Assembly: GCA_019637295.1 (NCBI GenBank)
Contig: JAHBVX010000018.1
Span: 1-64,000, forward strand
Direction of reading: 5' to 3'
DNA length: 64,000 nucleotides
DNA from: Polyangiaceae bacterium
Lineage (GTDB): Bacteria > Myxococcota_A > Polyangia > Polyangiales > Polyangiaceae
Every line of letters begins with the position of its first letter. Position 1 is the stretch's first letter. Under the pieces are notes generated by a model that was given only the letters and a program-made list of their open reading frames with translations, ran no database searches and had not been told where the DNA came from. This document shows positions 16,245 through 44,581 of this stretch, in pieces. The position numbers and the translations under genes were made by a program.

Positions 16245-17291
16245 CTACTCGTCGTCGTTGCCGTCGTCGTCCGCCGCTGCCGGGTCGGCGCGGGGCGCCG
16301 CGCGGCGCGGCCCGAGCAGGCCGCGCGTCATCCGGCGAGGTGGCTCCGTGAGCCGCTGGGCCAGCTTCTCCCTCTGCTCGGGCGTGAGGATCGCGGTCAG
16401 CTCCCGCACTTGCTCGATCATCTTTTCGGCGCCAGCTCGACCCATGGCACCTGGCAAGGGGGCGGAGGACAGCTCCACCTTCGTCGCGTCGAAGTCGTCC
16501 TTCTCGAAGGCAACGAGCAGCGCTTCGCCCTGCTTCCTGTGCTCCTCGCGCAGCGCCTCGAGGTCTGGCTTCGCCTTGTCGCTCCGCGCCTTCTCCTTCA
16601 GCGCGTTGACCTTCGTCTCTTGCTCCGCCGTCAGGGCGAGATCTTTGGTCAGTCCCTCGAGGCTTCCGGCCCAAGCCCCCTCGCCCGCGCCGCGGCCGGC
16701 TGCCTTGCCGCGCCACGCTCCCGGACCGCCTCTGCCCATGCCCGGCCCGGCCGCCGGAGCTTTGTCGCCGTCCCCGCCGCGCTCGGCGCGCGCGACGTGA
16801 CTCTCTCGCACGCTGGCCACGACGGACTTACGCTGCTCGGCATTGAGCAGCTTGTGCAGCTCTGCGAGCGCCGTGACCTCGGCGTCCCGCCGACTCTTGG
16901 CTGCGGCGTCGAGCGCGCCGAGCTCGGTCTCGAGCTTCGATGCCTCCACCGTGCCCACCTTCACGGCCGCCGCCAGGCTCTCGTTCAGCTTGCGCACCGC
17001 CTGTCGGGTGGCGTCGTCCTTCAGCGAGGTTCGCAGGCCGTCGACCTTCGTCTTCTGGGCGTCGTCGAGGGTCAGCGTGGCGGCCGCGGCCAGCATCATG
17101 CCCACGGGAGACAGTCGACCCCGCGCACCCCGCAAGCCGCGCGGCTTGTCCCCGCGCTCCTTGGGCTCGGCCTTGGCCGAAGCCGTTGCCTGCGCGACGG
17201 GCTCCCCGGTGGTCTCGGGCGTCGCGCCCTTGTCGCAGGCCAGGGGCAGGGTGAACGCGATGGCAAGCGCCAGTCGGCTGATGTGAGTCAT
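16245..17291 (-). CDS. Spy/CpxP-like lipoprotein with repeated LTxxQ motifs
   Basis: 348 residues. The signal peptide ends in LPLAC (Cys about 19). The rest is charged, Ala-rich helix with several LTxxQ-type motifs: TLDDAQKTKV (about 75), LNAEQRKSV (about 153), LTAEQETKVNAL (about 220) and LTPEQREKLAQ (about 308). These mark two Spy/CpxP-type helical modules; single-module relatives are periplasmic chaperones or metal-stress sensors. A Gly/Arg-rich stretch (about 180-210) joins the two halves. No sensor kinase is adjacent. A repeat element lies upstream at 17379-17557. Confidence 0.75.
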   Translation of the reverse strand: MTHISRLALAIAFTLPLACDKGATPETTGEPVAQATASAKAEPKERGDKPRGLRGARGRLSPVGMMLAAAATLTLDDAQKTKVDGLRTSLKDDATRQAVRKLNESLAAAVKVGTVEASKLETELGALDAAAKSRRDAEVTALAELHKLLNAEQRKSVVASVRESHVARAERGGDGDKAPAAGPGMGRGGPGAWRGKAAGRGAGEGAWAGSLEGLTKDLALTAEQETKVNALKEKARSDKAKPDLEALREEHRKQGEALLVAFEKDDFDATKVELSSAPLPGAMGRAGAEKMIEQVRELTAILTPEQREKLAQRLTEPPRRMTRGLLGPRRAAPRADPAAADDDGNDDE

Positions 17292-17378: not shown

Positions 17379-17557
17379 GCGCTACAGCGGCTTTCCACTG
17401 CATGAAACAGCAGCGGCGCGGGGTTGGAGACCCCGCGCGGGGTGTGGGGCGGCAGCCCCACCGGGGACTTCCGGCGAGGCCGGCGCCGGCTGCTCCCCGG
17501 TCGCGTCAGTCGCAGGGCACGCACAGGTTACGACCCAATGAAAGCCGCTGTAAGCGC
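17379..17557. repeat. MITE-like structured element, copy 1
   Basis: About 179 bp bounded by near-perfect inverted ends: left GCGCTACAGCGGCTTTC (17379-17395), right GAAAGCCGCTGTAAGCGC (17540-17557), differing by one extra base. The interior has several GC hairpins (GGGGTTGGAGACCCC, CCCCGCGCGGGG). Its first 74 bp (17382-17455) recur inverted at 28596-28669 with a few mismatches. It ends one base after the stop codon of the FGE lipoprotein gene. Confidence 0.7.
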
Positions 17558-17558
17558 C

Positions 17559-18461
17559 TCAATTCGCCGAAGTCGCGTCGCGACAACAGCGAAAGCCCGT
17601 ACTGTAGTCGTGGTAGTTCTTGCCATGACCGGGGGTCAGGTAGCTGCAGCCATCGCCATGCTCGCTGACGTTGCCGTAGAAGCCACCCATGAAGATGGCG
17701 TGACCTAGGTTCACGTTCAGCTTCTCCAGGATCTCGTGGTGCAGCGGCACCTTGTTCGGCAGCTCCTGATCGACGGTGTCGCTCACCCACTCGTGCAGGT
17801 TGCCGACCATGTCGAAGGTGCCGTGCTCGTTCGTGCACCCAGCGTACTCTGCCGTCTTGGCCAAGAACCCGGGCGTCGAGTTGAGCTCGGGGCTGTTGAA
17901 GTGCTCCATGTACTTCCATTTGCGCGAGTCGCGGCCGTAGAGCTTGGTCAGCAGGTGCGGCTTGCCGGAGTTGCACACTCCGGCGCGATAGCTCGCGCCA
18001 TACGGGAAGACCTGACCAGAGCGCGCGCGGCAGGCGGCGAACCACTGCCGCAGGGTGCACAGTCGCTTGCCCGCTTGCTCGCAGGCAGCGGCGGCCTCGA
18101 GCCGATTGACGTAGGCTTGGGGCATCACGTCCGGCGCGGACTTCGCAGTGTACGTCACGCCGCGCTCGGGGCGCGCCGTGTGCGGGTGGGCGCCCCCGTC
18201 CGCGGCCACCAGGTGAGCCTCCCAACGGTCCACGCAGTTCTTGCCCACGTGCGCCATCTCGGGTGGACACGGCGTCGCCCTCGGCGGGGCGACCGTGGCG
18301 CTCGTCTTCGCGACCGGTGGCGCCGACGCGACAGGTGCGCTCGACAGCGACGGGAGCGCGCTCGCGTTGGGCGGCGCCGGCGAGACAGTACCGGCGCGCG
18401 CGGTCTCGCAGCCCAGGGTCGCGCCCGCGAGCAGACAGAGCAGCTTGAGCGGGAGCGACAT
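17559..18461 (-). CDS. FGE-sulfatase (SUMF1)-domain lipoprotein
   Basis: 300 residues. The signal peptide ends in GATLGC (Cys about 18) and a Ser/Ala/Pro-rich linker runs to about 62. The domain shows FGE/SUMF1 features: CPPEMAHVG..CVDRWEA at the start, AAACEQAGKRLCTLRQW (the 'GKRLPTEAEW'-like helix), FDMVGNLHEWVSD, GGFYGN and TGFRCC at the end. Most bacterial members outside the true formylglycine-generating enzymes are binding or accessory proteins. Several Cys suggest disulfides outside the cytoplasm. Its catalytic status cannot be judged from sequence alone. Confidence 0.85.
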   Translation of the reverse strand: MSLPLKLLCLLAGATLGCETARAGTVSPAPPNASALPSLSSAPVASAPPVAKTSATVAPPRATPCPPEMAHVGKNCVDRWEAHLVAADGGAHPHTARPERGVTYTAKSAPDVMPQAYVNRLEAAAACEQAGKRLCTLRQWFAACRARSGQVFPYGASYRAGVCNSGKPHLLTKLYGRDSRKWKYMEHFNSPELNSTPGFLAKTAEYAGCTNEHGTFDMVGNLHEWVSDTVDQELPNKVPLHHEILEKLNVNLGHAIFMGGFYGNVSEHGDGCSYLTPGHGKNYHDYSTGFRCCRDATSAN

Positions 18462-18572
18462 CGTCGCACATCATGACATCGCCGGCGGCTCGTGGAAAAC
18501 TCCGGACTCGGCCGGCAGATCGCTGGTCTTATGGTGCTTCCCTGCCCGGCGGCGTGGGGTATCGTGCGAGCC

Positions 18573-20514: not shown

Positions 20515-22482
20515 TCAGGCGTCGGCCTCTCCGGTGTGGGTCCGCACTCGTTGCCTGAGCACCAGCAGGATGATCAGCACGTTCAGCGTCGAGGCGAAGC
20601 CGAAGATGGGCGCCGCGTGCTCCGGCCACGCGCGCGTGCCGGCGAAGGCGACGCCCGAGAGCAGCGCGGACACCCACAGCCACGGGAGCAGCAGCACCGC
20701 TCCACCGGCGGTGACCGCGGCGAAGGTCATCGCGTCCGTCTGGAACACTCCCGCGACCGGGGAGCCGGTGAGCATCGCCGACACCCGATTGAGCAGGGTG
20801 GCGCTGAGGAGCACGAGCACCAACCAGCCGAGCTTGCGGTTGAACGCGCTGGCGAGCAGGGCCTTGCGCCCGAGGATGAGCACGGCGACCGCGAGCGCCA
20901 GCAGCGTCGCGCTGATGGCGACGAGGCGCTCGGCCGCGACGACGACGCCGCCCGCCAACAGGACGAAGCTGGAGAAGCTGGCGATCACGATGGTGGCGCC
21001 CGCGAGCAAGAGGGTACGGCCACGCGCGCCCACGGTCGGGTCCTGCTCCTTCGCCAGCGCGCGCATGCGCTCCTCGGCCTCGCGTCGTCGCGCCAGGGTC
21101 GCCTCCACCTTCTCGATCGCGACCACCAGCGCCGGAGAGGGCTCGTCGAGCTCGTCCAGCAAGGCCCGGGCCGTATCGGCGTGACCTTGACGCAGTTCGA
21201 GCTCGATCAGCGCGCGAACGCAGCGCTCGTGGGCTTGCTGCGCCGGGCGATTCGACGGCTGCTCGCGGCGGCTCTGGGCGATGCCGAAGCGGGCCTCCGT
21301 CGCCAATCGATGCGCGGCGGCGAGCTGCTCGGCGGTCAAGGCGCCGCTCTGAGCAGCGAGCAGCGCCTCTATCTGGTCGATGCTCGAGAGCGCCGCAGCG
21401 GCGAGCGCGTGAGCGCTGCGCCCCTGGACGAAGCCAGCGAGCTCCTGACGGAAGTGGCGCACGCTCTCGGGGCGCTGGGCTGGGTCGCGCGCGGTGGCGC
21501 GATTGGCCAGCTCCCCGAGCTGCGCTGGCAGCGCGGGCGGGTACGCGACGGGCGGCGAGAGCGCTGCAGCGACCAGGACCCCTTCGAGGCTCTGGCCGTC
21601 GTGACGGCACCTACCGGTCAGCACCTGGTGCAGCGTGGCGCCGAGCAGATACACGTCCGTGTGGGGACCCAGCGCGGAGCCGAGGACCATCTCCGGGGCC
21701 ATGTAGGCCGGCGTCCCGACGATACCACCGTCGCCCTGCGGCTCGCCGACCCGACGCGCGATACCCCAGTCCACCAGGTACACTTCGCCGAACGCACCGA
21801 CCATGACGTTCTCGGGCTTCACGTCGAGGTGCAACAAGCCGCGGCTGTGCGCGAACTCCACGGTCTCGCACACGCGCATCAGGATCTCCAGATTGCCAAG
21901 CAGTGGCTCAGCGCGCTGTCGCTCGCCCCACAGCACGTGCTCGGGATCCTCGAGCAACACGCGCCACTCGACGCCATCGACGCGCTTCATGACGAGCACC
22001 GGCCAGCCGCGGTCGTCGAGGCCGAGCGCGTGGACCGGGATCACGCCCGGATGCTCGAGCGCTCCGGTCGCGCGCGCCTCGTGCACGAGCGCCTCGGCGA
22101 TGCGCGCCGTCGCGCCGGGCTTGAGGCCCTTCACGGCCACCTCGCGGTCGAGCGAGCGCTGCCGGGCGAGGTGCACGGCGCCCATGCCACCTTCACCGAG
22201 GGTGCGGACGAGCGTGAGATCGGGCGCGTGCGGATTCGTCGTGTCGGGGTCGACCACGGCGTCCGCGAGGGGCCCGAGCGAGATGCGCGGCAGCGGCTCG
22301 ACCGAGGGCAACACGGGCTCGGTGCCGTCGGTCGCCAGTGCCGCGGTGGGCGCCGAGCCCAGCTGCCACTCCGCGAGCGCCACGGTGTGCGGTTTCAGAG
22401 TCACGTCCGGGCGCAGCGCGGCTCGATCCAACTCCAGCGCCGTGATGCGCGCCCGAGCACGCAGCTCCACCTCGGTCGTCAA
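20515..22482 (-). CDS. Membrane Ser/Thr protein kinase (PknB type)
   Basis: 655 residues. Kinase domain about 90-355: Gly loop LGEGGMGAV (95-103), catalytic Lys118 in REVAVKGL, HLDVKPEN (218-225) in place of HRDLKPEN, VDWG (237-240) in place of DFG, and GTPAYMAPEM. The Asp of both motifs is kept, but the Arg of HRD is Leu, so activation may not need activation-loop phosphorylation. A helical region (370-480) precedes about six transmembrane segments (490-645), putting the kinase in the cytoplasm. The proposed start is TTG 22482; a later GTG is possible. It diverges from the lipoprotein methyltransferase across 48 bp containing a palindrome. Confidence 0.88.
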   Translation of the reverse strand: MTTEVELRARARITALELDRAALRPDVTLKPHTVALAEWQLGSAPTAALATDGTEPVLPSVEPLPRISLGPLADAVVDPDTTNPHAPDLTLVRTLGEGGMGAVHLARQRSLDREVAVKGLKPGATARIAEALVHEARATGALEHPGVIPVHALGLDDRGWPVLVMKRVDGVEWRVLLEDPEHVLWGERQRAEPLLGNLEILMRVCETVEFAHSRGLLHLDVKPENVMVGAFGEVYLVDWGIARRVGEPQGDGGIVGTPAYMAPEMVLGSALGPHTDVYLLGATLHQVLTGRCRHDGQSLEGVLVAAALSPPVAYPPALPAQLGELANRATARDPAQRPESVRHFRQELAGFVQGRSAHALAAAALSSIDQIEALLAAQSGALTAEQLAAAHRLATEARFGIAQSRREQPSNRPAQQAHERCVRALIELELRQGHADTARALLDELDEPSPALVVAIEKVEATLARRREAEERMRALAKEQDPTVGARGRTLLLAGATIVIASFSSFVLLAGGVVVAAERLVAISATLLALAVAVLILGRKALLASAFNRKLGWLVLVLLSATLLNRVSAMLTGSPVAGVFQTDAMTFAAVTAGGAVLLLPWLWVSALLSGVAFAGTRAWPEHAAPIFGFASTLNVLIILLVLRQRVRTHTGEADA

Positions 22483-22504
22483 GCCCCGAGCATACCTTCC
22501 CGCG

Positions 22505-22516
22505 CGTCAGCTGACG
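22505..22516. promoter_or_regulatory. 12-bp palindrome in a divergent promoter region
   Basis: CGTCAGCTGACG is a perfect palindrome in the middle of the 48-bp gap between the divergent kinase and methyltransferase genes. One regulator could act on both. The short length makes chance possible. Confidence 0.35.
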
Positions 22517-22530
22517 ATGGGACCTGTGCT

Positions 22531-23361
22531 ATGCCGACGGTGATGCTCCAAACGGTCGCCGCTTGCGCGTTCAGCACCGCTCTCGTCCTCTCGTGCGCGT
22601 CGGCGCCGGTGCCCGCGCCCTCCGCGTCGCCGAGGCCAGGGAGCCCGACGGCGACACCACCTCCGTCCGAGCCCGCGCCGCTACCGCGGGCTCACGACAA
22701 CGCTGGCGAGCAGGGTCACGCGCACGGTCACGATGACGCTCACGCCCACGGCCACGAGCACGACGACACCCACCCTACGGCGACGCATCGCTTCGACGAC
22801 GTGACGCACTGGGTTCGTGTCTTCGACGATCCGAGCCGAGACGCCTGGCAGCGGCCGGCCTACGTCGTGGGTCTGCTCGCGCTGTCGCCCAGTGACACGG
22901 TGGCGGACCTGGGCACCGGCACGGGCTATTTCGTACCGCACCTGTCGAAGGCGGTGCCGAAGGGGCAGGTGCTGGCCGTCGACGTCGAGGAGAAGCTGCT
23001 CGAGCACGTGCGGCAGCGCGCTCACAAGGCCGGCCTCGGCAACGTGCGCACGGTGCTCGCCAAGACCGATGACGCGACCCTGCCGGGCGGCGTGAGCGTA
23101 GTGCTGCTGGTCAACACCTACCACCACATCGGCAAGCGCATCGCGTACTTTCGCGCCGTCGGGGAGCGCCTCGGGCAGACCGGCCGGGTGGTCATCGTGG
23201 ACTTCAAGCTCGGCAAGTTTCCCGTGGGCCCGCCGGACTCCCACAAGCTAGCTCCGGAGAAGGTGGAGCAGGAGCTGACCGCCGCGGGCTTCGGCCGCTG
23301 CAAGCGCGACGACACCCTGCCCTACCAGTACGCGCTGGTGTTCTCGCGGGCTTGCCGCTAG
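22531..23361 (+). CDS. Lipoprotein with His-rich segment and SAM-methyltransferase domain
   Basis: 276 residues from ATG 22531. A hydrophobic N-terminus ends in VLSC (Cys 22), then a Pro/Ser linker and a His/Asp-rich segment at about 54-85 (HAHGHDDAHAHGHEHDD) that looks like a metal-binding patch. Residues 95-276 are a class I methyltransferase: VADLGTGTGYFVPHLS (SAM motif I), VLAVDVEEKLLE, NTYHHIGKR and GRVVIVDFKLG. Export of a SAM-dependent enzyme is puzzling because SAM is cytoplasmic; related myxobacterial proteins with the same layout may have lost catalysis or act elsewhere. It is divergent from the membrane kinase. Confidence 0.8.
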   Translation: MPTVMLQTVAACAFSTALVLSCASAPVPAPSASPRPGSPTATPPPSEPAPLPRAHDNAGEQGHAHGHDDAHAHGHEHDDTHPTATHRFDDVTHWVRVFDDPSRDAWQRPAYVVGLLALSPSDTVADLGTGTGYFVPHLSKAVPKGQVLAVDVEEKLLEHVRQRAHKAGLGNVRTVLAKTDDATLPGGVSVVLLVNTYHHIGKRIAYFRAVGERLGQTGRVVIVDFKLGKFPVGPPDSHKLAPEKVEQELTAAGFGRCKRDDTLPYQYALVFSRACR

Positions 23362-28595: not shown

Positions 28596-28669
28596 CTGCC
28601 GCCCCACACCCCGCCCGGGGTCCCCAACCCCGCGCCGCTGCTGTTCCATGCAGTGGAAAGCCGCTGTAA
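28596..28669. repeat. Structured repeat, copy 2 (inverted, partial)
   Basis: 74 bp matching 17382-17455 on the opposite strand with only a handful of mismatches, including CAGCGGCTTTCCACTGCATG and the GC hairpins. The outer inverted end of copy 1 at 17540-17557 is absent, so this is a partial copy. It lies 11 bp before the lipoprotein start at 28680. Confidence 0.8.
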
Positions 28670-28679
28670 CCTCGGGCCA

Positions 28680-29141
28680 ATGGTCATCGCCGACTTCATG
28701 GCCGCGTCGCTGCTGGTGAGTCTCGGCGCCGGAGGCTGCACTCCGCGGCGAGCCGCCCTGGCTCCGGACACGCTCCCACCCGCGACTGTCGGCAGCGCCG
28801 AAGCCGTACCCGGTGGAGCCGCGGGCCCCGCCCCGCTCGCGACTGCGGCGACGCGCTGCACGCCGGGCAGCTTCTCGTACCTGGGGTTCGAGGGAAGGGG
28901 CGTGCCCACGCGAAAGCAGGCAGAGGAGATCACCCGGCTGCTGCCGGGCGCTGCCGTGGTGCTCGTGGAGGAAGGCAAGCTCGGCGTCATCCTGGCAGGG
29001 GACTACTCGAGCGAGCTTCGAGCGCGGCACGAAGCGGCCGGGCGCGCCATCGGCTGGGAGGGCAACGTGGTCGACTTCCCGATGGTCGCCGCGGACTGCT
29101 CACTCCAGTTCAAGCAGCCACCACCACTGCCCTCGCCCTGA
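28680..29141 (+). CDS. Predicted lipoprotein, unknown
   Basis: 153 residues from ATG 28680; a second in-frame ATG at 28695 is possible. A short hydrophobic segment ends SLGAGGC (lipobox). After an Ala/Pro linker, the mature domain has YLGFEGRGVPTRKQAEEI, PGAAVVLVEEGKLGVILAG and a C-terminal MVAADCSLQF. It is a small alpha/beta-looking domain without a recognised family. Confidence 0.6.
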   Translation: MVIADFMAASLLVSLGAGGCTPRRAALAPDTLPPATVGSAEAVPGGAAGPAPLATAATRCTPGSFSYLGFEGRGVPTRKQAEEITRLLPGAAVVLVEEGKLGVILAGDYSSELRARHEAAGRAIGWEGNVVDFPMVAADCSLQFKQPPPLPSP

Positions 29142-31046: not shown

Positions 31047-31160
31047 GGTTCGTTCTCCACGTTGGCGTGCGATCACGAGTTCGCTTCACTCGCAGCGCGA
31101 GTCAACGATACCCCGCCAGGAGGCTTACCCTCCCGGCACCGCGGATCTAACATCGCCTCG

Positions 31161-33707
31161 ATGGTGGATGGCAAGGGGAAACTCCCTCGAGTGATGGACC
31201 CTCACGCGGTGGTCCAGACACTCGTATCGGGCACCGCCCCGACGCCGTCCCTGACGTCGGGAGTTCGAGTCGTGACGGCGGATCCCACCGCGCCGACACA
31301 GGCTGCGGTCCCGCGTGCCGCACACGACGCCGTCCAGCGAGATGCGGTCACGGTCATGGCGGGACGCGCTGACGATGCTCGAGCGGACTCCGGCTCGCTC
31401 GCGCGCTACGATCCGCTCTCCGAGTTGGGTCGGGGCGGGATGGGCCTGGTGCGCGAGGCGTTCGATCGTTTGCTTGGGCGCCATGTGGCGATCAAGTCGC
31501 TGCTGAGCAGCGACCAAGACGATGCATCTCTGCTCGTCGCGGAAGCTCAGGTGTGTGCGCAGCTCGAGCATCCGAGCATCGTGCCGCTCTACGATCTCGA
31601 CTGCGACGAGAACGGTATCCCCTGCTACACGATGCGGGTCGTTCGAGGACGCAGCTTGAGTGAAGTGCTCGGCGAGCGTGCGTCGGGGGAAGCGCCCTTC
31701 CCGTTGGCTCGGCTGCTGGGCGTGTTTCGCCAAGTGTGTCTCGCGGTCGACTACGCCCACAGCCGCGGCGTCGTGCATCGCGATCTCAAGCCGGCCAACA
31801 TCGTCCTGGGCGAGTTCGGCGAAGTGTACGTCGTCGACTGGGGGATCGCGCGGGTGCTGGAGGGAGCGTCGGTGCGGCCCATCAGTGCGTCACCTCGGAT
31901 CGCGGGCACTCCAGGCTACATGGCCCCGGAGCAGGTGGAGGGCGACGACCTGGACGGTCGCGCCGACGTGTTTGCGCTGGGCGTGATGCTCTACGAGCTC
32001 CTCTCCGGTGTCCGTCCGTTCGAGAGCGATAGCCTGCGGTCCGTGGTCGACCGTCGAGCGGTCATGGTGCGCACCCCACCGAGCCGGGTGGACCCGGAAC
32101 GCCAGGTGCCGCCGGCGTTCGACATGCTGGTGCTCGCTTGCCTCAGCCCGGATCCGATCGGGCGACCGGGACGCGCGCGGGCGATCGCCAGCGCGATCGA
32201 CGAGTTCTTGGATGGCGAGCGGGCACGCGTCGAGCGGGAGCGGGAGGCCTGCGAGTATGCCGCCGCGGGGGATGGCGCGCGAAGCGAGCAAGAGGCGCTG
32301 GAGGCAAGGGCGGCCGCGATCGACGCTGAGGCGGAGCGAGCGCTCGCCGAGCTTCACCCCTGGCAGGACGCAGACGACAAGCTCGACGCCTGGCGAGCCA
32401 AGTCCCGAGCGCGCGCGCTGCGCGCAGACGCTGCCCGCGCCCGTGCCCGGGCCGAGACCGCATACGCTCGGGCGCTCGGGCGCGTGGCTGAGCATGCTCA
32501 GGCGCGCCGGGGACTCGCCCGCTTGTACTTCACGCAGCTGGTCGATGCGGAGCGCAACGGCGACGAAGAGAGCGTCGTCGAACTGCTGGACCTGGCCCGC
32601 GCTTACGACGACGGCGAGCTATCCCTGGAGCTGTCCAACGAAGGACGGCTCGTGGTCGAGTCGCAGCCGCGAAGCGCCGTCGTCACGATTCAACGCTACG
32701 AACCGGCCGGTCCGCTGTTGGTGCTCGGCGCGCCTCGCGAGCTGGGTCGGACGCCCACCTCTGCCGAACGGTTTGCCGCAGGGAGCTACCTGATCGTGGC
32801 GCGCACCGGCGACCAAGAAGTGCGTTATCCAATCGTTGTCAGGCGTGCACGGCAGCACTTGCTGCGACTGCGCGTGCCCGAGCCGGGTGAGCTACCACCC
32901 GACATGGTCCTGGTGCCTGGTGGGCCGTTCCTGGCAAGTCCGCGCGACGCCAAGCTCGAGACCCTCGAGCTGCCGGACTTCGCGATCGCGCGGTTCCAGG
33001 TGCGCATCCGCGAGTACACGCGATTCCTCGATGACCTCACGGAGGCGGAGCGAGCGCGTCACATGCCCGCCGCGATCGACGCGGGTCAGCCCTATCTGGT
33101 GCGCGGCGCCGGCGGTTGGTCGCTCGGGCCCACCGTGCTCGAGGGACCGGGTCGTGGTCGCGTCCCCGCCAGCACCGAGCTCGACCTTCCGGTCGCGAAC
33201 GTGCGTTGGTACGACGCGCTCGCTTACGCTCGGTGGCGGGCGCGACGCGAAGGGCATCCCTTTCGCTTGCCCAGCGATCTCGAGTGGGAGAAGGCGATGC
33301 GTGGCGCCGATGGACGGGTCTTCTCGATGGGCATGACGCTCGACCCGTCGTTCGCCAAGCTGCGCGAGTCCAGGCCCGAGGCCTCTCAGCCCGAGCCCGT
33401 CGGCAGCTTCCCTCTGGACGAGTCCCCCTACGGGGTGCGCGATCTGGCGGGAGGCGTGGGGGACTGGACCAACACGTCGCCCGACGGGGCGCCCCTGCCG
33501 TCGCTGGAGGAGGCGGGCACGCCGGAGGCCGACGAGCGCCAGGTGATTTGGCGCGGAGGTACCTGGTCGAGCACGGCGTACGCGCCGCGCGTCGCACGCG
33601 TCACGCAGCCCCTACGCTCCTGGGCGGGCTGGATCGGATTTCGTCTGGCGCTGAGCCTATCGGGACAGCCTAGCTCGAAGCTATTGACCGAGCCGATGCG
33701 AGATTGA
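31161..33707 (+). CDS. Ser/Thr protein kinase fused to FGE-sulfatase domain
   Basis: 848 residues from ATG 31161. Kinase domain about 80-340: LGRGGMGLV, Lys about 110 in HVAIKSLL, HRDLKPAN (about 206-213), VDWG (about 226), GTPGYMAPEQ. Residues 350-470 are Ala/Glu/Arg-rich coiled coil. A PEGA-like beta segment (SQPRSAVVTIQRYEP) lies at about 495-575. From about 582 an FGE/SUMF1 domain follows (DMVLVPGGPFLA, FQVRIREYTRFLDD, FRLPSDLEWEKAMRG, GVRDLAGGVGDWT, WRGGTWSS, GWIGFRLAL). The kinase with C-terminal FGE layout is recurrent in myxobacteria; the second domain probably binds rather than oxidises. There is no transmembrane segment, so it is a soluble cytoplasmic kinase. Confidence 0.9.
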   Translation: MVDGKGKLPRVMDPHAVVQTLVSGTAPTPSLTSGVRVVTADPTAPTQAAVPRAAHDAVQRDAVTVMAGRADDARADSGSLARYDPLSELGRGGMGLVREAFDRLLGRHVAIKSLLSSDQDDASLLVAEAQVCAQLEHPSIVPLYDLDCDENGIPCYTMRVVRGRSLSEVLGERASGEAPFPLARLLGVFRQVCLAVDYAHSRGVVHRDLKPANIVLGEFGEVYVVDWGIARVLEGASVRPISASPRIAGTPGYMAPEQVEGDDLDGRADVFALGVMLYELLSGVRPFESDSLRSVVDRRAVMVRTPPSRVDPERQVPPAFDMLVLACLSPDPIGRPGRARAIASAIDEFLDGERARVEREREACEYAAAGDGARSEQEALEARAAAIDAEAERALAELHPWQDADDKLDAWRAKSRARALRADAARARARAETAYARALGRVAEHAQARRGLARLYFTQLVDAERNGDEESVVELLDLARAYDDGELSLELSNEGRLVVESQPRSAVVTIQRYEPAGPLLVLGAPRELGRTPTSAERFAAGSYLIVARTGDQEVRYPIVVRRARQHLLRLRVPEPGELPPDMVLVPGGPFLASPRDAKLETLELPDFAIARFQVRIREYTRFLDDLTEAERARHMPAAIDAGQPYLVRGAGGWSLGPTVLEGPGRGRVPASTELDLPVANVRWYDALAYARWRARREGHPFRLPSDLEWEKAMRGADGRVFSMGMTLDPSFAKLRESRPEASQPEPVGSFPLDESPYGVRDLAGGVGDWTNTSPDGAPLPSLEEAGTPEADERQVIWRGGTWSSTAYAPRVARVTQPLRSWAGWIGFRLALSLSGQPSSKLLTEPMRD

Positions 33708-36074: not shown

Positions 36075-39000
36075 ACGCGGTCCCTGCGCGAGATTCGCCG
36101 GCCGCCCAGGACCAGCAGCGCCAGCAGCGCGAGGAAGAGGCCGCCGCGGCTCGGCTTCGGCACCGTGAGGCAGCCGCAGCCCCCGTCGTCGCCGGTCGCT
36201 CCGCCAGCTTTGGGCGCGGCCTCTACCACCACCGAGAGCACGTTGCCGTAGGCCAAGCCCGCCTCGTTGGAGGCGATGGCGCACACGTAGTAGGTACCTG
36301 GGGCCGGCGCGGCGACGGACTCGAAGAACGACACCGGGGACCGACCATCCCCCAGGGCTTGTCCGTCCGCCACCGGCAGGCGAGTGCCGAAGGTGTCGTT
36401 ACAAGTGCCCGGGCTGGTCACGTCGTAACGGAACCAGGCGGTGGTCTCCGAGCCGCGGGGGTCGGCGCTGCCGCTCAGAGTGAGCGAGCCGTCTGCCTCG
36501 CGATCCGCCGCCACGGTCTGGACCACCGGGGGCGCGGCCTCGGTGGTGAAGGTTTGCACCTGTCCGAAGGCAGCGCCGCCGAGGTTGCTCGCCGCTGCGC
36601 AGAAGTAGTAGGTCGCGCTGGGTTCGAGGGCGGTCAGCAGCTCGGTGAACGCCATCGCCGCTGTCCCCGCTCCCAGGGCAATCCCGCCGACCGCCGGCAC
36701 GCGTTGGCCGAAGGCATCGCTGCAGGTCCCCGGGTTGGTCTGCCCGACGCGGAACCAGCCCTCGGCGTCGAGGCCGTTCGGGTTGGCCGTGCCCGCGGCC
36801 AACGCCTGGGTCGCCTCGATGCCGGTCGCCGGCTCGGTCGTCACGGTGGGCGGAGTGGTGCCGGGCGAGAAGGACACCACGTTGCCGAAGGCGATCCCCT
36901 CCGCGTTCTCGGCGATCGCACAGTAGTAGTAGACCTGCGTCGTGAGACCCGCGATGGCCTCGGAGAAGGGGACCGACGTGGTGCCGGCGCCCAGGGGCAC
37001 GTCCCCGGTGGCGGGAACCCGCACGCCGAAGCTGTCGTCGCACGCGCCCGGATCCGTGGCGCTGTAGCGGAACCAGCCGCCGGTGTCGGCGCCGTTCGCC
37101 ACCGCCGTACCGTTCAGCGTGGCGGAGCTGACGGTCACGTCGCTGGGAGCATCCGTGGTGACGCTGGGCGCCAGGGCCGAGGTGGTGAAGCTCAATACAT
37201 CCCCGAACCCGGTGCCTACCGCGCTGGAGGCGATCGCACAGTAGTAGTAGACGGTCCCCGGCTGGAGCCCGGTGATCGCCTCGCCGTAGGCCACCGGAGT
37301 GGAGCCAGCGCCGAGCGCGGTGCCGCCCGTCGCGGGAGTGCGGGTGCCGAAGGTGTCGTCGCAGGCGCCCGGATCCGTGCTGCTGTAGCGGAACCAACCG
37401 GTGGTGGCGGTGAGGTTCGGGTTGGCGGTGCCCTGGAGCGTGCCGCCGGTGTTGGTGACCGCAGTGGCCGCCTCGGTGACCACCACGGGTGGCTCTGGCG
37501 TCTCCGGCGTGGTGAAGGAGAGCACCGCACCGAAGGCCGTGCCGACTACGTTCTGCGCGATCGCGCAGTAGTAGTAGGTGCCGCCCGGCACCAGACCCGA
37601 TGCCATCTCGGCGAAGGGAACCGGAGCAGTGCCGTCGCCCAGGGCCGTGCCCCCGGTAGCGGGCACCCGGGTACCGAAGCTGTCGTTGCACGCACCAGGG
37701 CTGGTGGAGGCGATGCGGAACCATCCGGTGCTCGCACCAGCACTGGGGTTGGCCGTGCCTTCGAGGGTGGCCGCCGTGTTGGTCACCCCGGTAGCGGCCT
37801 CGGTGGTGACCACCGGCACGCTCGGCGTGGTGAACGACATCACGTCACCTACGCCGAGACCCTGAGCGTTCTGGGCGATGGCGCAGTAGTAGTACGTGGT
37901 GCCCTGGGCGAGGCCGGTGAGCGCCTGGTCGAAGGGGACCGCGCTGGAGCCGGCGCCCAGGGGCGTGCCGCCGCTCGCGGGCGCCCGGATACCGAAGCTG
38001 TCGTTGCAGGTCCCCGGGCTCGAGGTGGCGTAGCGGAACCAGCCGCTGGCGGTGGCGAGGTTGGGGTTGCCGGAGCCCTGGAGCGTGGCACCGGTGCTGG
38101 TGATCTGGGTGGCCGCGAGCGTGACCACTGCCGGCGCAGCCACCGTATCGAAGGAGAGCACCGCGCCGAAGCTGGTACCCCCGGAGCTGGAGGCGATGGC
38201 GCAATAGTAGTAGGTCGTGCCGGGTGTGAGGCCGGAGATGTCCTGGGAGTAGGCCACCGCCGAGGCGCCCGACCCGAGCGCTGCGCCGCCGCTCGTGGGA
38301 GCGCGGGTACCGAACGTGTCGTTGCAGGTGCCGGGGCTGGTCGTCGCGTAGCGGAACCAGCCCGTGGTGGTCGCGCCGCTCGGGTTGGCCGAGCCGTTCA
38401 GGGTGGCGGTGCTGGGCGTGACCAGAGTGGCCGGCGCCGTCACCACCACGGGCGGGCCGAGCGTGGTGAAGGAGAGTACCGCACCGAAGCTGGTGCCCAC
38501 CGCGTTCGACGCGATCGCGCAGTAGTAATACGTGGTGTTCTGCGTGAGGCCCGTCACCGGCTGGGAGTAGCCGGTCAAGGTAGAGCCGGAACCCAGCGCG
38601 CTGCCACCGCTGGTCGGAGCGCGGGTGCCGAAGGTGTCGTTGCAGGTGCCGGGGTTGGTCGTCGCGTAGCGGAACCACCCGGTGGTGGCGGAACCGTTCG
38701 GATTGGCGGCGCCCTCCAGCGTGGCGGACGTACCCGCGACGGCGCTGGCAGCCTCGGTGGTCACCGAGGGGGCCGCCGGAGTGGTGAAGGAGAGCACCGC
38801 GCCGAAGCCGGTACCCGTCGCGTTCGAAGCGAGCGCGCAGTAGTAATACGTGGCGCCCGCGGTGAGGCCGGTGAGCGCCTGGGAATAGGCTACCGCGGCG
38901 GAGCCGGAGCCGAGGGCGGTGCCCCCGGCGGCGGGCGCCCGGGTACCGAAGGTGTCGTTGCAGGTCCCCGGGTTGGTGGTCGCGTAGCGGAACCACCCGG

Positions 39001-42000
39001 TCGACGCCGTCCCGCTCGGGTTCGCCGAGCCGTTCAGGGTCGCTCCGTTGCTCGAGACGACGGTCGCCGGTTGCGTCACCACCACGGGCGCTGCCGGGGT
39101 GGTGAAGGAGAGCACCGCGCCGAAGCTGGTGCCCACCGCGTTCGAAGCGATCGCGCAGTAGTAGTACGTGGTTCCCGCGGTGAGGGAGGTGAGCGGCTCG
39201 GAGTACGGAACTGCGCTGGAGCCGGCGCCGAGCGCGGTGCCGCCCCCAGCGGGCACCCGGATCCCGAAGGTGTCGTTGCAGGCGCCGGGACTGGTCGTCG
39301 CGTACCGGAACCAGCCGGTGGCGTCGGACAGCCGAGGATTCGCCGAGCCGTTCAGGGTCGCGCCGCTGCTGGAGACACCGGTCGCCGCCAGGGTCGTCAC
39401 CGTGGGTGCGGCGGGAGTGGTGAACGACAGAACGGCGCCGAAGCGAACCCCCAGCGCGTTGGAGGCGACGGCGCAATAGTAGTAAGTCGCGCCGGCAGAC
39501 AACCCGGTGACCGTCTGGGAGTAGTCCACTGGAGCCGAACCGGCGCCGAGCGCGGCTCCGCCGCTCGAGGGCGCGCGAGTCCCGAAGGTGTCGTTGCAGG
39601 TGCCTGGACTGGTGGTGGCGTACCGGAACCAGCCCGTGGTGGCGGAGAGGTTGGGATTGGCCGAGCCATTGAGCGTGGCACCCGTGCTGGACACCGCGGT
39701 GGCCGGCTGCGTGACGACCGTGGGCGCACCGGTGGTGGTGAACGAGAGCACGGCACCGTAGCCGAGACCCGCGGCGCTGGAGGCGATCGCGCAGTAGTAG
39801 TAGGTGGTGGACGACGCCAGGCCCGAGAGCGTCTGCGCATAAGCAACCGCCACCGAGCCAGCCCCGAGCGCGGTGCCGCCAGTCGCGGGAGCCCGGGTGC
39901 CAAAGGTGTCGTTGCAGGTGCCCGGGTTGGTCGCCGAGTATCGGAACCAGCCGGTCGAGGCCGTGCCGTTGGGGTTCCCGGAGCCGTTCAGAGTGGCGCC
40001 GGTGCTGGACACGGCGGTGGCCGGCTGGGTAGTGACCGACGGCGCCGCGGTGTTGAACGACAGAACGGCGCCGAAGCCGACGCCGACCGAGTTCTCGGCG
40101 ATGGCACAGAAGTAGTAGGTCACGCCGGTGGTCAGGCCGCTGACGGTAGTGGCGTAGGCAACGGGCGTGCTGCCGCTGCCCAGGGCCGTGCCCCCAGTGA
40201 CCGGGGCCCGAGTCCCGAAGGTGTCGTTGCACGTGCCCGGGTTGGCCGTCGAGTACCGGAACCAGCCGGTGGTGGCGGAGCTGTGAGGATTGGCCGAACC
40301 ATTGAGCGTCGCCGACGTCCCCGAGACATCGGTCACGGACACGGTGGTCACCACCGGCTGGCTGGCAGGCGTGGTGAACGACAAGACCTGTCCAAAGCCC
40401 GTACCGATGGCGCTGGAGGCAATGGCGCAGAAGTAATACGTGGTGCCGGGTGTGAGCCCGGTGATCGGTTGAGAGTGACCGACCGCGATGTTGCCAGAGC
40501 CCAGGGCGGTGCCGCCGCTGGCGGGCGCGCGGATGCCGAAGCTGTCGTTGCAGGTGCCCGGGCTGGTCGTGGAGTAGCGGAACCAACCCGTGCTGGCGAA
40601 GCCGTGAGGATTGGTGGAGCCGTTGAGGGTGGCGGTGAACGCGGTCACCGGCGTCGCCGCCAGCGTGCTCACGGTGGGCGGACTGGTGGTCGTGAAGGAG
40701 AGTACCGCGCCGAAGGCCGTCCCCACCGAGTTCTGCGTGATGGCGCAGAAGTAGTAGAGGGTGCCAGGAGCGAGCCCGGTGATGCCCTGTGAGAAGGCGA
40801 CGCTGCTGGTGCCCGAGCCCAGGGCCGAGCCGCCGCTGGCCGGCGCGCGAGTGCCGAAGCTGTCGTTGCAGGTGCCGGGGCTGGTGGTCGCATAGCGGAA
40901 CCAGCCGGTGGTCGCTGCGCCCCCCGGGTTGCTGGAGCCGTTGAGCTGCGCCGTCGTCGGCGTCAGAGACGAGGCCGCGGTGGTCACGGCGGTGGGCGCT
41001 GCCTGCGCCGTGGTGAAGGAGAGCGGAGTCCCGAAGGAGGTCCCGTAGGCGTTGCTGGCGATCGCGCAGAAGTAGTACGTCGTGTTGGGCAGGAGCCCGC
41101 TGGCCGTGAATGCGTAGGGTGCCGCGGAGGTGCCCGCGCCGAGAGCGCTGCCGCCGCTGGTGGGCAGTCGGGTGCCGAACGTGTCGTTGCAGGTGACGGG
41201 GTTGGTCGTCGCGTAGCGGTACCAGCCGGTGCTGGTGGCGCCGTTCGGGTTGGCGGAGCCGTTCAAGACGGCCGACGTCGCCAGCACGTTGCTGGCCGGT
41301 TGGGTGGTCACCGTGGGCGCCGCGAGCGTCGTGAAAGACAGCACCTGACCGAAGGACAGACCCTCCGCGCTCGAGGCGATCGCGCAGAAGTAGTACGTGG
41401 TGCCGGGCGAGAGGCCGGTGACCGAGCGGGGAAAGGACACGGGCGAGTTGCCGGCCCCGAGACTCGTGCCGCCGGTGACGGGAGCACGGGAGCCAAACGT
41501 GTCGTCGCAGGTGCCGGGGCTGGTGGTCGCGTAGCGATACCAGCCGGTGGTCGCCGCTCCGTGCGGGTTACCCGTACCGTTCAGGGTCGCGGAGGTGTTG
41601 GCCACCGCCGTGGCTGCCAGGGTGACCACCGTGGGCGGCAGCGGCGTGGTGAACTGCTGCACGGCTCCGAAGGCCGTGCCCACCGCGTTCTGCGTGATGG
41701 CGCAGAAGAAGTAGAGCGTGCCCGGCGTGAGCCCGGTGATGCCCTGGGAGAAGGCGGCGGAGCTGGTGCCCGAGCCCAGGGCCGAGCCGCCGCTGGCCGG
41801 CGCGCGAGTGCCGAAGCTGTCGTTGCAGGTGCCGGGGCTCGCCGTCGCGTAGCGGAACCACCCCGTGGTGGCCGAGCCCCCGGGGTTGCCCGAGCCGTTG
41901 AGCTGCGCCGTGGTCCCGGTGAGCAGCGTAGCCGCGCTGGTCACCGCCGTGGGCGCCGCCGCCGCCGTGGTGAACGAGAGCGGCGCGCCGAAGGACGTCC

Positions 42001-44581
42001 CGTAGCTGTTGCTGGCGATCGCGCAGAAGTAGTACGTGGTGTTGGGCAGGAGCCCGCTGGCGGTGAACGCGTAGGCCGTCGCCGAAGTGCCTGCGCCCAA
42101 GGCGCTGCCTCCGCTGGTGGGCAGTCGGGTGCCGAACGTGTCGTTGCAGGTGCCCGGGTTGGTGGTGGCGTAGCGGTACCAGCCGGTGCTGGTGGCGCCG
42201 TTCGGGTTGGCCGAGCCGTTCAAGACGGCCGACGTCGCCAGCACGGTGGTCGCCGGTTGGGTGGTCACCGTGGGCGCCGCCAGCGTCGTGAAAGACAGCA
42301 CCTGGCCGAAGGACAGTCCCTCCGCGCTCGAGGCGATCGCGCAGAAGTAGTACGTGGTGCCCGGCGACAGCCCGGTGATGTTCTGGAAGTACGCGACCGG
42401 ACTGCTGCCACCACCGACGTTGGTGCCGCCCGAGACGGGAGCGCGAGAGCCGAAGCTGTCGTCGCAGGTGCCGGGGCTGGTCGTCGCGTAGCGGAACCAC
42501 CCGGTGGTCGTCGCGCCGTGCGGGTTGGCCGTGCCGTTCAACCGTGCGCCGACGTTGGTGACGAGGGTGGCCGCCGTGGTGGTCACCGTGGGCGGCAGCG
42601 GCGTGGTGAACTGCTGTACGGCTCCGAAGGCCGTGCCCACCGCGTTCTGCGTGATGGCGCAGAAGTAGTAGAGCGTGCCCGACGCGAGCCCGGTGATGCC
42701 CTGAGAGAACGCGACGCTGCTGGTCCCCGAGCCCAGGGCCGAGCCGCCGCTGGCCGGCGCGCGAGTGCCGAAGCTGTCGTTGCAGGTGCCGGGGCTGGTG
42801 GTCGCGTAGCGGAACCAGCCCGTGGTGGCCGAGCCCCCGGGGTTGCCCGAGCCGTTGAGCTGCGCCGTGCTCCCGGTGAGCAGCGTGGCCGCGCTGGTCA
42901 CCGCCGTGGGCGCCGCCGCCGCCGTGGTGAACGAGAGCGGCGCGCCGAAGGACGTCCCGTAGGCGTTGCTGGCGATCGCGCAGAAGTAGTACGTGGTGTT
43001 GGGCAGGAGCCCGCTGGCGGTGAACGCGTAGGCCGTCGCCGAAGTGCCTGCGCCCAAGGCGCTGCCGCCGCTGGTGGGCAGTCGGGTGCCGAACGTGTCG
43101 TTGCACGTGCCCGGGTTGGTGGTGGCGTAGCGGTACCAGCCGGTGCTGGTGGCGCCGTTCGGGTTGGCCGTGCCGTTCAAGACGGCGGAGGTCGCCAGCA
43201 CGGTGGTCGCGGGCTGGGTGGTCACCGTGGGCGCCGCCAGCGTCGTGAAGGACAGCACCTGGCCGAAGGACAGTCCCTCCGCGCTCGAGGCGATCGCGCA
43301 GAAGTAGTACGTGGTGCCCGCCGACAGCCCGGTGATGCTCTGGAAGTACGCGACCGGACTGCCGCCGCCACCGACGTTCGTGCCGCCGCTGACGGGCGCG
43401 CGCGAGCCGAAGGTGTCGTTGCAGGTGCCCGGGGCGGTAGCGCTGTAGCGAAACCACCCCGTGGTCGTCGCGCCGTTCGGGTTGGCCGTGCCGTTCAACC
43501 GTGCGCCCACGTTGGTGACGAGGGTGGCCGCCGTGGTGGTCACCGTGGGCGGCAGCGGCGTCGTGAACTGCTGCACGGCTCCGAAGCCCGTGCCCGCCGA
43601 GTTCTGCGCGATGGCGCAGTAGTAGTAGGTGGTGCCAGGTGACAGACCGGTGACGCCCACCGAGAACGGGACGCTGGTGTTGCCGGCGCCGAGGGCCGTG
43701 CCGCCGCTGGCGGGAGCACGAGCGCCGAAGCTATCGTTGCAGCTGCCGGGGCTGGCCGTCGCATAGCGGAACCACCCCGTGGTGGCCGCGCCCCCGGGGT
43801 TGCCCGAGCCGTTGAGCTGCGCCGTGGTCCCGGTCAGCAGGGTGGCGGCGCTGGTGGCGACTGAAGGCACCGCCGGCAGCACGGTGAAGGAGTCCAGCGC
43901 GCCATAGGAGGTGCCGTGGGCGTTGCTCGCGATCGCGCAATAGTAGTAGGTGGCGCCGGGGGTGAGGCCGGAGATCCCCTGCGTGTAGGCCACCACGCTG
44001 GTACCCGACCCCAGCGCAGAGCCACCGCTGACGGGCGCCCGGGTGCCGAAGGTGTCGTTGCAGGTGCCCGGGCTGGTGGTGGAGTAGCGGAACCAGCCGG
44101 TGGTCGATGCCGCCACCGGATTGGCTGAGCCGCCGAGGGTGGCGGCGGTGCTGGTGATGCCGCTGGCCCCGGTGGTGGCCGCCACGGGCGCCCCCGGGAT
44201 GGTGAACGACAGGACGTTGCCAAACGCCGTGCCCGAGGCGTTCGAGACGATGGCGCAGAAGTAGTAGGTGACCCCCGAAGTCAGACCGGTGGTGGTGATG
44301 GCGTACGGGACCGCTACCGCCCCGGAGCCCAGATCCGTACCGCCGGCGCTCGGCACGCGGGTGCCGAAGGAGTCGTTGCAGGTGCCTGGACTCGTGGTGC
44401 TGTAGCGATACCACCCGGTGCTGGCCTCCCCGGCGGGGGTGCCAGTGCCGTTCAGCACGGCCGAGCTGGTGGTCAGCGAGGTAGCCGGCGACGTGGTGGC
44501 CGAAGGCGGCGCCGCGAGCGCGCGCAGCGGGGCACCGACCAGAATCAAGAAGACTGCGATCCGCAGAATGGCGATGTGCAC
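36071..44581 (-). CDS. Giant Fn3-like repeat surface protein with MYXO-CTERM-like end
   Basis: 2836 residues from GTG 44581. A signal peptide (IAVFLILVGAPLRALA) is followed by 26 repeats of about 105 residues. Each reads roughly V.T.AAT.V..T.ATLNG..NP.G..TTGWFRY.T..PGTCNDTFGTR, then APASGG.ALG.G, a GLTPGTTYYYCAIASN segment and G..FG.VLSFTT. They are fibronectin-III-like modules, each with two conserved Cys (GTCND, YYCAI) likely to pair. Repeats 3-11 form three near-identical triplets; the last four are most diverged. The C-terminus GCGCLTVPKPSRGG, then a hydrophobic segment and RRISRR, resembles the MYXO-CTERM sorting signal, so surface display is inferred. A stalk or adhesion role is plausible. 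Confidence 0.9.
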   Translation of the reverse strand: MHIAILRIAVFLILVGAPLRALAAPPSATTSPATSLTTSSAVLNGTGTPAGEASTGWYRYSTTSPGTCNDSFGTRVPSAGGTDLGSGAVAVPYAITTTGLTSGVTYYFCAIVSNASGTAFGNVLSFTIPGAPVAATTGASGITSTAATLGGSANPVAASTTGWFRYSTTSPGTCNDTFGTRAPVSGGSALGSGTSVVAYTQGISGLTPGATYYYCAIASNAHGTSYGALDSFTVLPAVPSVATSAATLLTGTTAQLNGSGNPGGAATTGWFRYATASPGSCNDSFGARAPASGGTALGAGNTSVPFSVGVTGLSPGTTYYYCAIAQNSAGTGFGAVQQFTTPLPPTVTTTAATLVTNVGARLNGTANPNGATTTGWFRYSATAPGTCNDTFGSRAPVSGGTNVGGGGSPVAYFQSITGLSAGTTYYFCAIASSAEGLSFGQVLSFTTLAAPTVTTQPATTVLATSAVLNGTANPNGATSTGWYRYATTNPGTCNDTFGTRLPTSGGSALGAGTSATAYAFTASGLLPNTTYYFCAIASNAYGTSFGAPLSFTTAAAAPTAVTSAATLLTGSTAQLNGSGNPGGSATTGWFRYATTSPGTCNDSFGTRAPASGGSALGSGTSSVAFSQGITGLASGTLYYFCAITQNAVGTAFGAVQQFTTPLPPTVTTTAATLVTNVGARLNGTANPHGATTTGWFRYATTSPGTCDDSFGSRAPVSGGTNVGGGSSPVAYFQNITGLSPGTTYYFCAIASSAEGLSFGQVLSFTTLAAPTVTTQPATTVLATSAVLNGSANPNGATSTGWYRYATTNPGTCNDTFGTRLPTSGGSALGAGTSATAYAFTASGLLPNTTYYFCAIASNSYGTSFGAPLSFTTAAAAPTAVTSAATLLTGTTAQLNGSGNPGGSATTGWFRYATASPGTCNDSFGTRAPASGGSALGSGTSSAAFSQGITGLTPGTLYFFCAITQNAVGTAFGAVQQFTTPLPPTVVTLAATAVANTSATLNGTGNPHGAATTGWYRYATTSPGTCDDTFGSRAPVTGGTSLGAGNSPVSFPRSVTGLSPGTTYYFCAIASSAEGLSFGQVLSFTTLAAPTVTTQPASNVLATSAVLNGSANPNGATSTGWYRYATTNPVTCNDTFGTRLPTSGGSALGAGTSAAPYAFTASGLLPNTTYYFCAIASNAYGTSFGTPLSFTTAQAAPTAVTTAASSLTPTTAQLNGSSNPGGAATTGWFRYATTSPGTCNDSFGTRAPASGGSALGSGTSSVAFSQGITGLAPGTLYYFCAITQNSVGTAFGAVLSFTTTSPPTVSTLAATPVTAFTATLNGSTNPHGFASTGWFRYSTTSPGTCNDSFGIRAPASGGTALGSGNIAVGHSQPITGLTPGTTYYFCAIASSAIGTGFGQVLSFTTPASQPVVTTVSVTDVSGTSATLNGSANPHSSATTGWFRYSTANPGTCNDTFGTRAPVTGGTALGSGSTPVAYATTVSGLTTGVTYYFCAIAENSVGVGFGAVLSFNTAAPSVTTQPATAVSSTGATLNGSGNPNGTASTGWFRYSATNPGTCNDTFGTRAPATGGTALGAGSVAVAYAQTLSGLASSTTYYYCAIASSAAGLGYGAVLSFTTTGAPTVVTQPATAVSSTGATLNGSANPNLSATTGWFRYATTSPGTCNDTFGTRAPSSGGAALGAGSAPVDYSQTVTGLSAGATYYYCAVASNALGVRFGAVLSFTTPAAPTVTTLAATGVSSSGATLNGSANPRLSDATGWFRYATTSPGACNDTFGIRVPAGGGTALGAGSSAVPYSEPLTSLTAGTTYYYCAIASNAVGTSFGAVLSFTTPAAPVVVTQPATVVSSNGATLNGSANPSGTASTGWFRYATTNPGTCNDTFGTRAPAAGGTALGSGSAAVAYSQALTGLTAGATYYYCALASNATGTGFGAVLSFTTPAAPSVTTEAASAVAGTSATLEGAANPNGSATTGWFRYATTNPGTCNDTFGTRAPTSGGSALGSGSTLTGYSQPVTGLTQNTTYYYCAIASNAVGTSFGAVLSFTTLGPPVVVTAPATLVTPSTATLNGSANPSGATTTGWFRYATTSPGTCNDTFGTRAPTSGGAALGSGASAVAYSQDISGLTPGTTYYYCAIASSSGGTSFGAVLSFDTVAAPAVVTLAATQITSTGATLQGSGNPNLATASGWFRYATSSPGTCNDSFGIRAPASGGTPLGAGSSAVPFDQALTGLAQGTTYYYCAIAQNAQGLGVGDVMSFTTPSVPVVTTEAATGVTNTAATLEGTANPSAGASTGWFRIASTSPGACNDSFGTRVPATGGTALGDGTAPVPFAEMASGLVPGGTYYYCAIAQNVVGTAFGAVLSFTTPETPEPPVVVTEAATAVTNTGGTLQGTANPNLTATTGWFRYSSTDPGACDDTFGTRTPATGGTALGAGSTPVAYGEAITGLQPGTVYYYCAIASSAVGTGFGDVLSFTTSALAPSVTTDAPSDVTVSSATLNGTAVANGADTGGWFRYSATDPGACDDSFGVRVPATGDVPLGAGTTSVPFSEAIAGLTTQVYYYCAIAENAEGIAFGNVVSFSPGTTPPTVTTEPATGIEATQALAAGTANPNGLDAEGWFRVGQTNPGTCSDAFGQRVPAVGGIALGAGTAAMAFTELLTALEPSATYYFCAAASNLGGAAFGQVQTFTTEAAPPVVQTVAADREADGSLTLSGSADPRGSETTAWFRYDVTSPGTCNDTFGTRLPVADGQALGDGRSPVSFFESVAAPAPGTYYVCAIASNEAGLAYGNVLSVVVEAAPKAGGATGDDGGCGCLTVPKPSRGGLFLALLALLVLGGRRISRRDRV
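41010..43880. repeat. 957-bp higher-order tandem repeat, three copies
   Basis: Within the giant gene, the same landmark (GTGGTGAACTGCTG-type text) occurs at about 41646, 42603 and 43560, a constant 957-bp step (319 residues, three Fn3-like units). The copies are far more alike than neighbouring single repeats, which points to recent unequal recombination. This block is also a likely place for assembly error. Confidence 0.9.

Follow-up and report, generated by a model that had tools for sequence, protein, structure and literature searches.

A 170 bp repeat with inverted TA ends and a GC-hairpin core in a Polyangiaceae genome, probably a non-autonomous miniature transposon

The stretch of DNA that was analysed (the window) comprises 64 000 nucleotides of contig JAHBVX010000018.1 of a Polyangiaceae bacterium. 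Comparison of copies places a full-length repeat of 170 bp, including its terminal TAs, between two genes on the minus strand (Table 1). The two TAs are spaced by 166 bp and the repeat has no gene of its own. No gene was placed on it by the gene caller, and the mechanical open reading frames 17424–17708 (+) and 17506–18474 (−) overlap the element, while none is contained within it. Its GC content is 0.71 compared with 0.69 for the window. The initial annotation let the element begin one base after a stop codon. This holds only for the minus-strand gene 17559–18461 (stop codon 17559–17561) and for an earlier end at 17557; from the element end as defined here the distance is 6 bp.

Table 1. Features of the window around the full-length and truncated copies of the element
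Feature	Position	Strand	Remarks
LTXXQ/Metal_resist gene	16245–17291	−	Start 91 bp from the element
Full-length element	17383–17552	+	One of nine full-length copies in its own genome
Left terminal inverted repeat TACAGCGGCTTTC	17383–17395	+	Consensus from 14 left ends; its TA presumably a duplicated target
Hairpin H1, GCGCGGGG-loop-CCCCGCGC	17416–17438	+	
Hairpin H2, GTGGGGC-loop-GCCCCAC	17444–17461	+	H1 and H2 form the core common to other genera
Hairpin H3, CCGGC-GAG-GCCGG	17471–17483	+	Consensus fold
Right terminal inverted repeat GAAAGCCGCTGTA	17540–17552	−	Consensus of 13 right ends
FGE-sulfatase-domain gene	17559–18461	−	Stop codon 6 bp from the element
Truncated copy (L012)	28596–28668	−	Left end to 5′ half of H2, without right end
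Lipoprotein-like open reading frame	28680–29141	+	11 bp past the inverted-repeat end of the truncated copy; sequence read by eye

Two further repeats were noted in the window. An array of about 24 repeats at 36230–44530 has a period near 318 bp, with copies mostly 60–77% alike to the reference copies, and looks like a repeated protein domain. A 107 bp inverted similarity (76%) links 21755–21861 to 31746–31852 within the long open reading frames 20536–23361 and 31062–33707, which are possibly paralogous genes.

The inverted ends, originally given as 17–18 bp, are indeed present, but the consensus end is only 13 bp long. The outer GCGC at 17379–17382 and 17554–17557 is seen only in the window copy. 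As it is missing from the other copies, it is flanking sequence and not part of the element. The interior carries three hairpins. The loop of H1 reads TTGGAGA in the window copy and TTGGGGN in the majority of copies, while the H3 stretch pairs slightly differently in single-sequence folds than in the consensus fold. The two strands of 17379–17557 fold with energies of −108.4 and −112.1 kcal/mol (z = −5.0 and −5.9), and none of 200 shuffled sequences did as well. The description of an interior filled with GC hairpins is thus in agreement with RNA folding on both strands.

The inverted partial copy at 28.6 kb, reported as 74 bp, is recovered as 73 bp that are 96% alike in the opposite orientation (genome BLAST E = 2.3 × 10−27). 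Folding of this fragment shows no clear excess over shuffled sequences (z = −1.1 on both strands). Its placement 11 bp before a lipoprotein start is correct as to the ATG at 28680; the lipoprotein character was recognized by eye only, with no Pfam match. The fragment may influence expression of this reading frame, as first suggested. A mechanical open reading frame begins with GTG at 28653, inside the truncated copy.

Using the window copy plus flanks as BLAST query, the repeat is found at about 16 places in its own genome (G000; 7.65 Mb in 25 contigs), matches with E > 0.001 being left out of the count. Nine copies are full length (L001–L009, with the window copy among them) and about seven are partial or internally deleted. 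The partial ones include L010, L011, L015 and the second window copy L012, while L014 and L013/L016 (the latter pair identical to L050) are internally deleted with both ends kept. A pattern search added L049, a lone left end, and a covariance model added L134 (G000:C8:135225–135382), a distant relative of the core with a far longer H1 loop. Other single ends are chance-like: 6 of the 23 pattern matches were extra ends, compared with 4 in a reversed control. The nine full copies have pairwise identities of 0.88–0.98 (gaps not counted) and are 86–100% identical to the window copy, and homology among copies ends at the element ends. The family is therefore not confined to two copies without common ends, the case that would have spoken against the initial annotation.

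The 13 bp consensus end is exact in six of 14 left ends and eight of 13 right ends, and the terminal TA is present in 12 and 11 of them, respectively. The base preceding the TA position is C or T in all 14 left ends, and an A or G follows the right end in 11 of 13 (ten of the 11 ending in TA). Both ends are present in 11 copies, of which nine read YTA...TAR and eight TTAG/CTAA. At the 781 TA sites of the window these contexts make up 5.1% (YTAR) and 0.5% (TTAG/CTAA), giving enrichments with P of about 10−10 and 8 × 10−17, values that assume independent insertions and come from a test picked after the ends had been seen. One terminal TA is altered in L004 and L008 (both counted as YTAR) and in L014 (not counted), and L010 lacks the left end as well as the last bases of the right end. 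Such YTA...TAR ends fit the duplicated TA of a YTAR site in the style of Tc1/mariner–IS630 elements, and judging from the terminal sequences a TA duplication is likely. In eight of 13 cases the right end reads GTAG, at the outer 3′ end. The T before and the G after may thus belong to the element as a fixed GTAG-type end, in which case the target-site statistics would mean something else. A CTAG target preference is reportedly named in the title of one study on an IS630-type element.

In G014, a genome from the same genus as G000, neither a DNA search (E ≤ 0.001) nor the covariance model gave any match to the element. At the L010 locus the matching stretches are 40 bp apart in G014 and 183 bp apart in G000. 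At the L009 locus the distances are 609 and 707 bp; this difference is smaller than the element, yet the G014 interval has no similarity to it. The comparison demonstrates absence of the element from these loci in G014 rather than a clean footprint, and the loci are too diverged to reveal a clean TA. The terminal TAs suggest a target duplication; the diverged G014 loci do not prove it. A syntenic counterpart of the sites of the two window copies was not found in G014, which gave only short or paralogous matches. The common sharp inverted ends together with the absence at the G014 loci point to insertion.

We consider it reasonably probable that the repeat is a family of miniature inverted-repeat transposable elements (MITEs) that carries a conserved GC-hairpin core and is mobilized by a TA-type transposase that has been lost or has escaped notice. 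Acting in trans, this transposase would recognize and cleave the inverted ends (11 bp plus TA). It would then insert the unit at the TA of a YTAR site, mostly TTAG, with the TA being duplicated. We infer that the enzyme would be of the cut-and-paste Tc1/mariner–IS630 type, lost from or unseen in the own genome. With 170 bp and no coding content the element has the size (<200 bp) and non-coding nature of a MITE, although it is not A+T-rich. The deletion derivatives L014 and L013/L050 keep both ends. The non-autonomous, MITE-like nature first proposed is well in line with the genome-wide copies with common inverted ends, their absence from G014 and the TA at most ends. Against the MITE reading stand the lack of an autonomous partner in the three transposase families searched and the fact that three of the 11 two-ended copies have one changed terminal TA.

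Relatives were sought in 108 genomes of the same family. By DNA search nine of them (own included) match at E ≤ 0.001, and a covariance model built from nine G000 and seven G020 copies matches three: G000 (at least 13), G020 (at least seven) and, unexpectedly, G015 (at least 25). These counts are lower bounds, as at most seven (DNA) and 33 (covariance model) candidates were scored per genome. Beyond the own genome, only G020 has good multiple copies in the DNA search (at least seven matches, 77–83%). The other seven matching genomes have short matches, some in coding-like sequence and some belonging to a repeat family that we call F2. Judged from identical flanks at L122 and L171, G015 is the metagenome-assembled genome (MAG) JACQWT01 (groundwater, deltaproteobacterial). 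The exact core pattern gave no match in 84 980 species genomes or in viral contigs. A looser pattern gave 84 stretches in the 84 980 genomes, and both scans may omit genomes near the window; all among the matches listed (80 of 84) lie in MAG JACQWT01, where these stretches (L145–L224) hold at least 82 exact core matches. No match to the element was found in phages and plasmids at E ≤ 0.01, nor the left-end pattern in viral contigs.

The G015 core is embedded in elements about 245 bp long that have several types of left end. Their distribution over 66 copies (drawn from the 82 exact cores by dropping those with short flanks or identical interiors) is 17 of type A, 17 B, 13 C, three D and two E, with 14 unassigned; the types were set by hand-made motifs, and two scripts differ (type C in 13 of 66 versus 17 of 49). 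Among the 17 type A copies 14 carry a matching right end; no matching inverted right end was seen for the other types. Ten of 17 type C copies begin immediately behind the stop codon of a long open frame (TGA in eight, TAG in two), and for six of 22 type A copies the distance to such a stop codon is at most 6 bp. The left ends read TACAGCGGC in G000, TATRCYGCGCGCGG in type A of G015 and TCTACYAGG in type C of G015.

The F2 family consists of repeats of about 290 bp with inverted arms of about 75 bp, beginning AGTCTTGG...CAGATCACGATCGGCG. Exact F2 cores number 21 in G074 and four in G075, and long arms are seen in four G074 copies (loci L089, L091, L095 and L100 in G074; L043, L034 and L047 in G075). 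In G000, L010 is a fusion of an F2-type left arm with the right half of the window family. This junction and the several partial copies would be expected if the window element had arisen by decay from a larger transposon or from F2 and were itself immobile. Against such decay, both ends and the full length are preserved in nine copies, and we regard this origin as very improbable.

The hairpins of the core have been retained while their sequence changed. In the alignment of G000 and G020 copies both-sided changes occur at four of 30 predicted pairs, and the covariation term is small (−0.23). For H2 a set from three genera was used that contains 29 distinct sequences (36 given), 20 of them from G015 and chosen among 37 distinct cores. 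H2 is paired in 98.5% of cells and has both-sided changes at two of seven pairs: the outer pair is C-G in 13, G-C in 13 and A-U in two sequences, and the next pair is U-A in 26 and C-G in two. Its covariation score of 0.211 compares with 0.071 in shuffles, was not attained in any of 500 shuffles and exceeds that of every slid version. At least as many pairs with both-sided changes (two) and extra pair types (five) were seen in 109 and 104 of 500 shuffles, respectively; few independent events underlie these numbers, and the search pattern that yielded the G015 sequences itself prescribes part of the core. Because sequence alignment misplaces H1 between genera, its pairs were counted after anchoring on the structure. 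Going outwards from the loop, the fifth pair is C-G or U-A in G020, the sixth is G-C in G000 and A-U, G-U or G-C in G015, and the seventh is C-G in G000 and A-U in G015. In G015, three of 34 copies have two broken H1 pairs, and isolated broken cells are seen in each of the three genera. Compensatory changes preserve H1 and H2 in the three genera, and the two hairpins thus probably act as a signal for binding or folding during the element's life cycle, in the form of single-stranded DNA or RNA. That the H1–H2 core is a long-lived selfish signal read in single-stranded form, associated with at least three unrelated left ends in three genera with the fold kept, is an idea to which we give little credence.

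A strong fold with compensatory changes could also mean that the repeat is a structured RNA or a regulatory element, such as a terminator, an attenuator or an sRNA, and owes its spread or retention to an effect on nearby genes. Using a home-made gene caller, ten of 15 sites in G000 are wholly intergenic and in the other five the element overlaps a called gene at its start. In five of these 15 sites the right end lies 2–21 bp ahead of a called gene start, as would suit such an effect. Seven sites are divergent, seven tandem and one convergent, and the divergent ones fit poorly with a regulatory role. In G015 the 51 copies (16 and nine tandem, 13 divergent, 11 convergent and two unpaired) are near the background of the loci. 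Rfam contains nothing for the element or for one G015 relative: one match each was obtained (E = 2 and 9.4), with scores that fall far short of the gathering thresholds and are not above chance. A pattern scan around the full window copy detected neither a sigma-70-type promoter nor a T-tailed terminator. A role as a terminator was considered separately and is not supported, given the lack of a T-tailed terminator and the site orientations in G000 and G015. As the sharp inverted ends and the absence from G014 indicate insertion, we consider a regulatory RNA to be a quite improbable origin of the family.

Returning to a mobile element, the transposases of G000 were inspected for a partner. DDE_3 (PF13358) has no match in this genome, which encodes two DDE_Tnp_1 proteins and one Y1/RAYT-like protein (locus L230). 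Among these three Pfam families no transposase gene with element-type CAGCGGCTTTC ends was found in G000, and an autonomous element with the same ends, which the initial annotation proposed to look for, did not come to light there. Ends near transposase genes amount to two or three matches with three mismatches at one gene, about the chance expectation. A Y1 gene resembling REP_Tyr_transpos occurs once in G000 and once in G015 (NCBIfam E values of 4.6 × 10−9 and 2.1 × 10−10, both below the NCBIfam cut-off), with none at E ≤ 0.001 in G014 or G020. In G015 the RAYT-like open reading frame 874–1950 (L229, G015:C11) is followed about 200 bp downstream by a right-end hairpin of the G015 element in the opposite orientation and then by an N run.

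These genes raise the alternative of a REP/REPIN-like element moved by a RAYT (Y1, HUH) that reads single-stranded hairpins, with the right end GCCGCTGTAG as GTAG tag and without target duplication. The compensatory changes in the hairpins and the GTAG in eight of 13 right ends would suit this, as would the presence of one RAYT-like gene each in G000 and G015 but not in the copy-free G014. The ten of 17 type C copies of G015 directly behind a stop codon also resemble REPs; GTAG REP termini often provide stop codons and some RAYT genes are flanked by terminal inverted repeats, according to PMC3733652. The right-end hairpin close to the G015 RAYT-like gene may be due to chance, since, among 39 hairpins of this type within the 568 kb of loci analysed, five are unattached to an exact core. 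The RAYT-like gene of G000 has neither element ends nor core around it, and G020 has at least seven copies, yet no RAYT match at E ≤ 0.001. In REPs the GTAG tag precedes the hairpin, unlike the GTAG-like letters of the element, which are at the outer 3′ ends. L001 and L008 switch both flanking bases jointly (C...A), as an inverted TTAG target would. The element further has 170 bp, inverted ends and about 16 copies, compared with 20–60 bp and hundreds of copies for REPs (PMC3116915). Taken together, movement by a RAYT appears unlikely.

For the MITE family favoured here, the hairpin core common to three genera is the part worth following. If it reflects function rather than common descent, the genomes provide a natural series in which ends and interior evolve separately, and such a series would allow the purpose of a MITE interior to be addressed. 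G015, with many copies and several end types, is the better genome for this question.

Literature on myxobacterial MITEs, REPs and repeat families, with subscription journals largely outside the search, contained no similar element. Elsewhere, the closest resemblance is to systems of three kinds. According to PMC2229807, the Correia/NEMIS and RUP MITEs are likewise shorter than 200 bp, non-coding and mainly intergenic, with inverted ends, terminal TA and hairpin folds. Unlike them the element is GC-rich and of low copy number; the same review describes bacterial MITEs as mostly A+T-rich, with an exception listed. RUP is there tied to IS630-Spn1, whereas no partner insertion sequence was found for the element in the three families searched. 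The element also differs from these MITEs in that its hairpin core is found in other genera in combination with other ends. The IS630/Tc1-mariner elements, represented by ISY100, share the TA at the ends and a YTAR-like context; IS630-type elements duplicate TA, and their in vitro behaviour is described in PMC2170065. In contrast to them, the element has no transposase gene and its genome has no DDE_3 gene. With REP/REPIN sequences and their RAYTs, as portrayed in PMC3733652 and PMC3116915, it has in common multi-copy extragenic hairpins, a RAYT-like gene in G000 and G015 and the stop-codon contact in G015, but it is not a 20–60 bp unit, has about 16 copies and does not flank the RAYT-like gene of G000. 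As a MITE family the repeat is unremarkable, apart from its hairpin core, which is found with different ends in two related genera.
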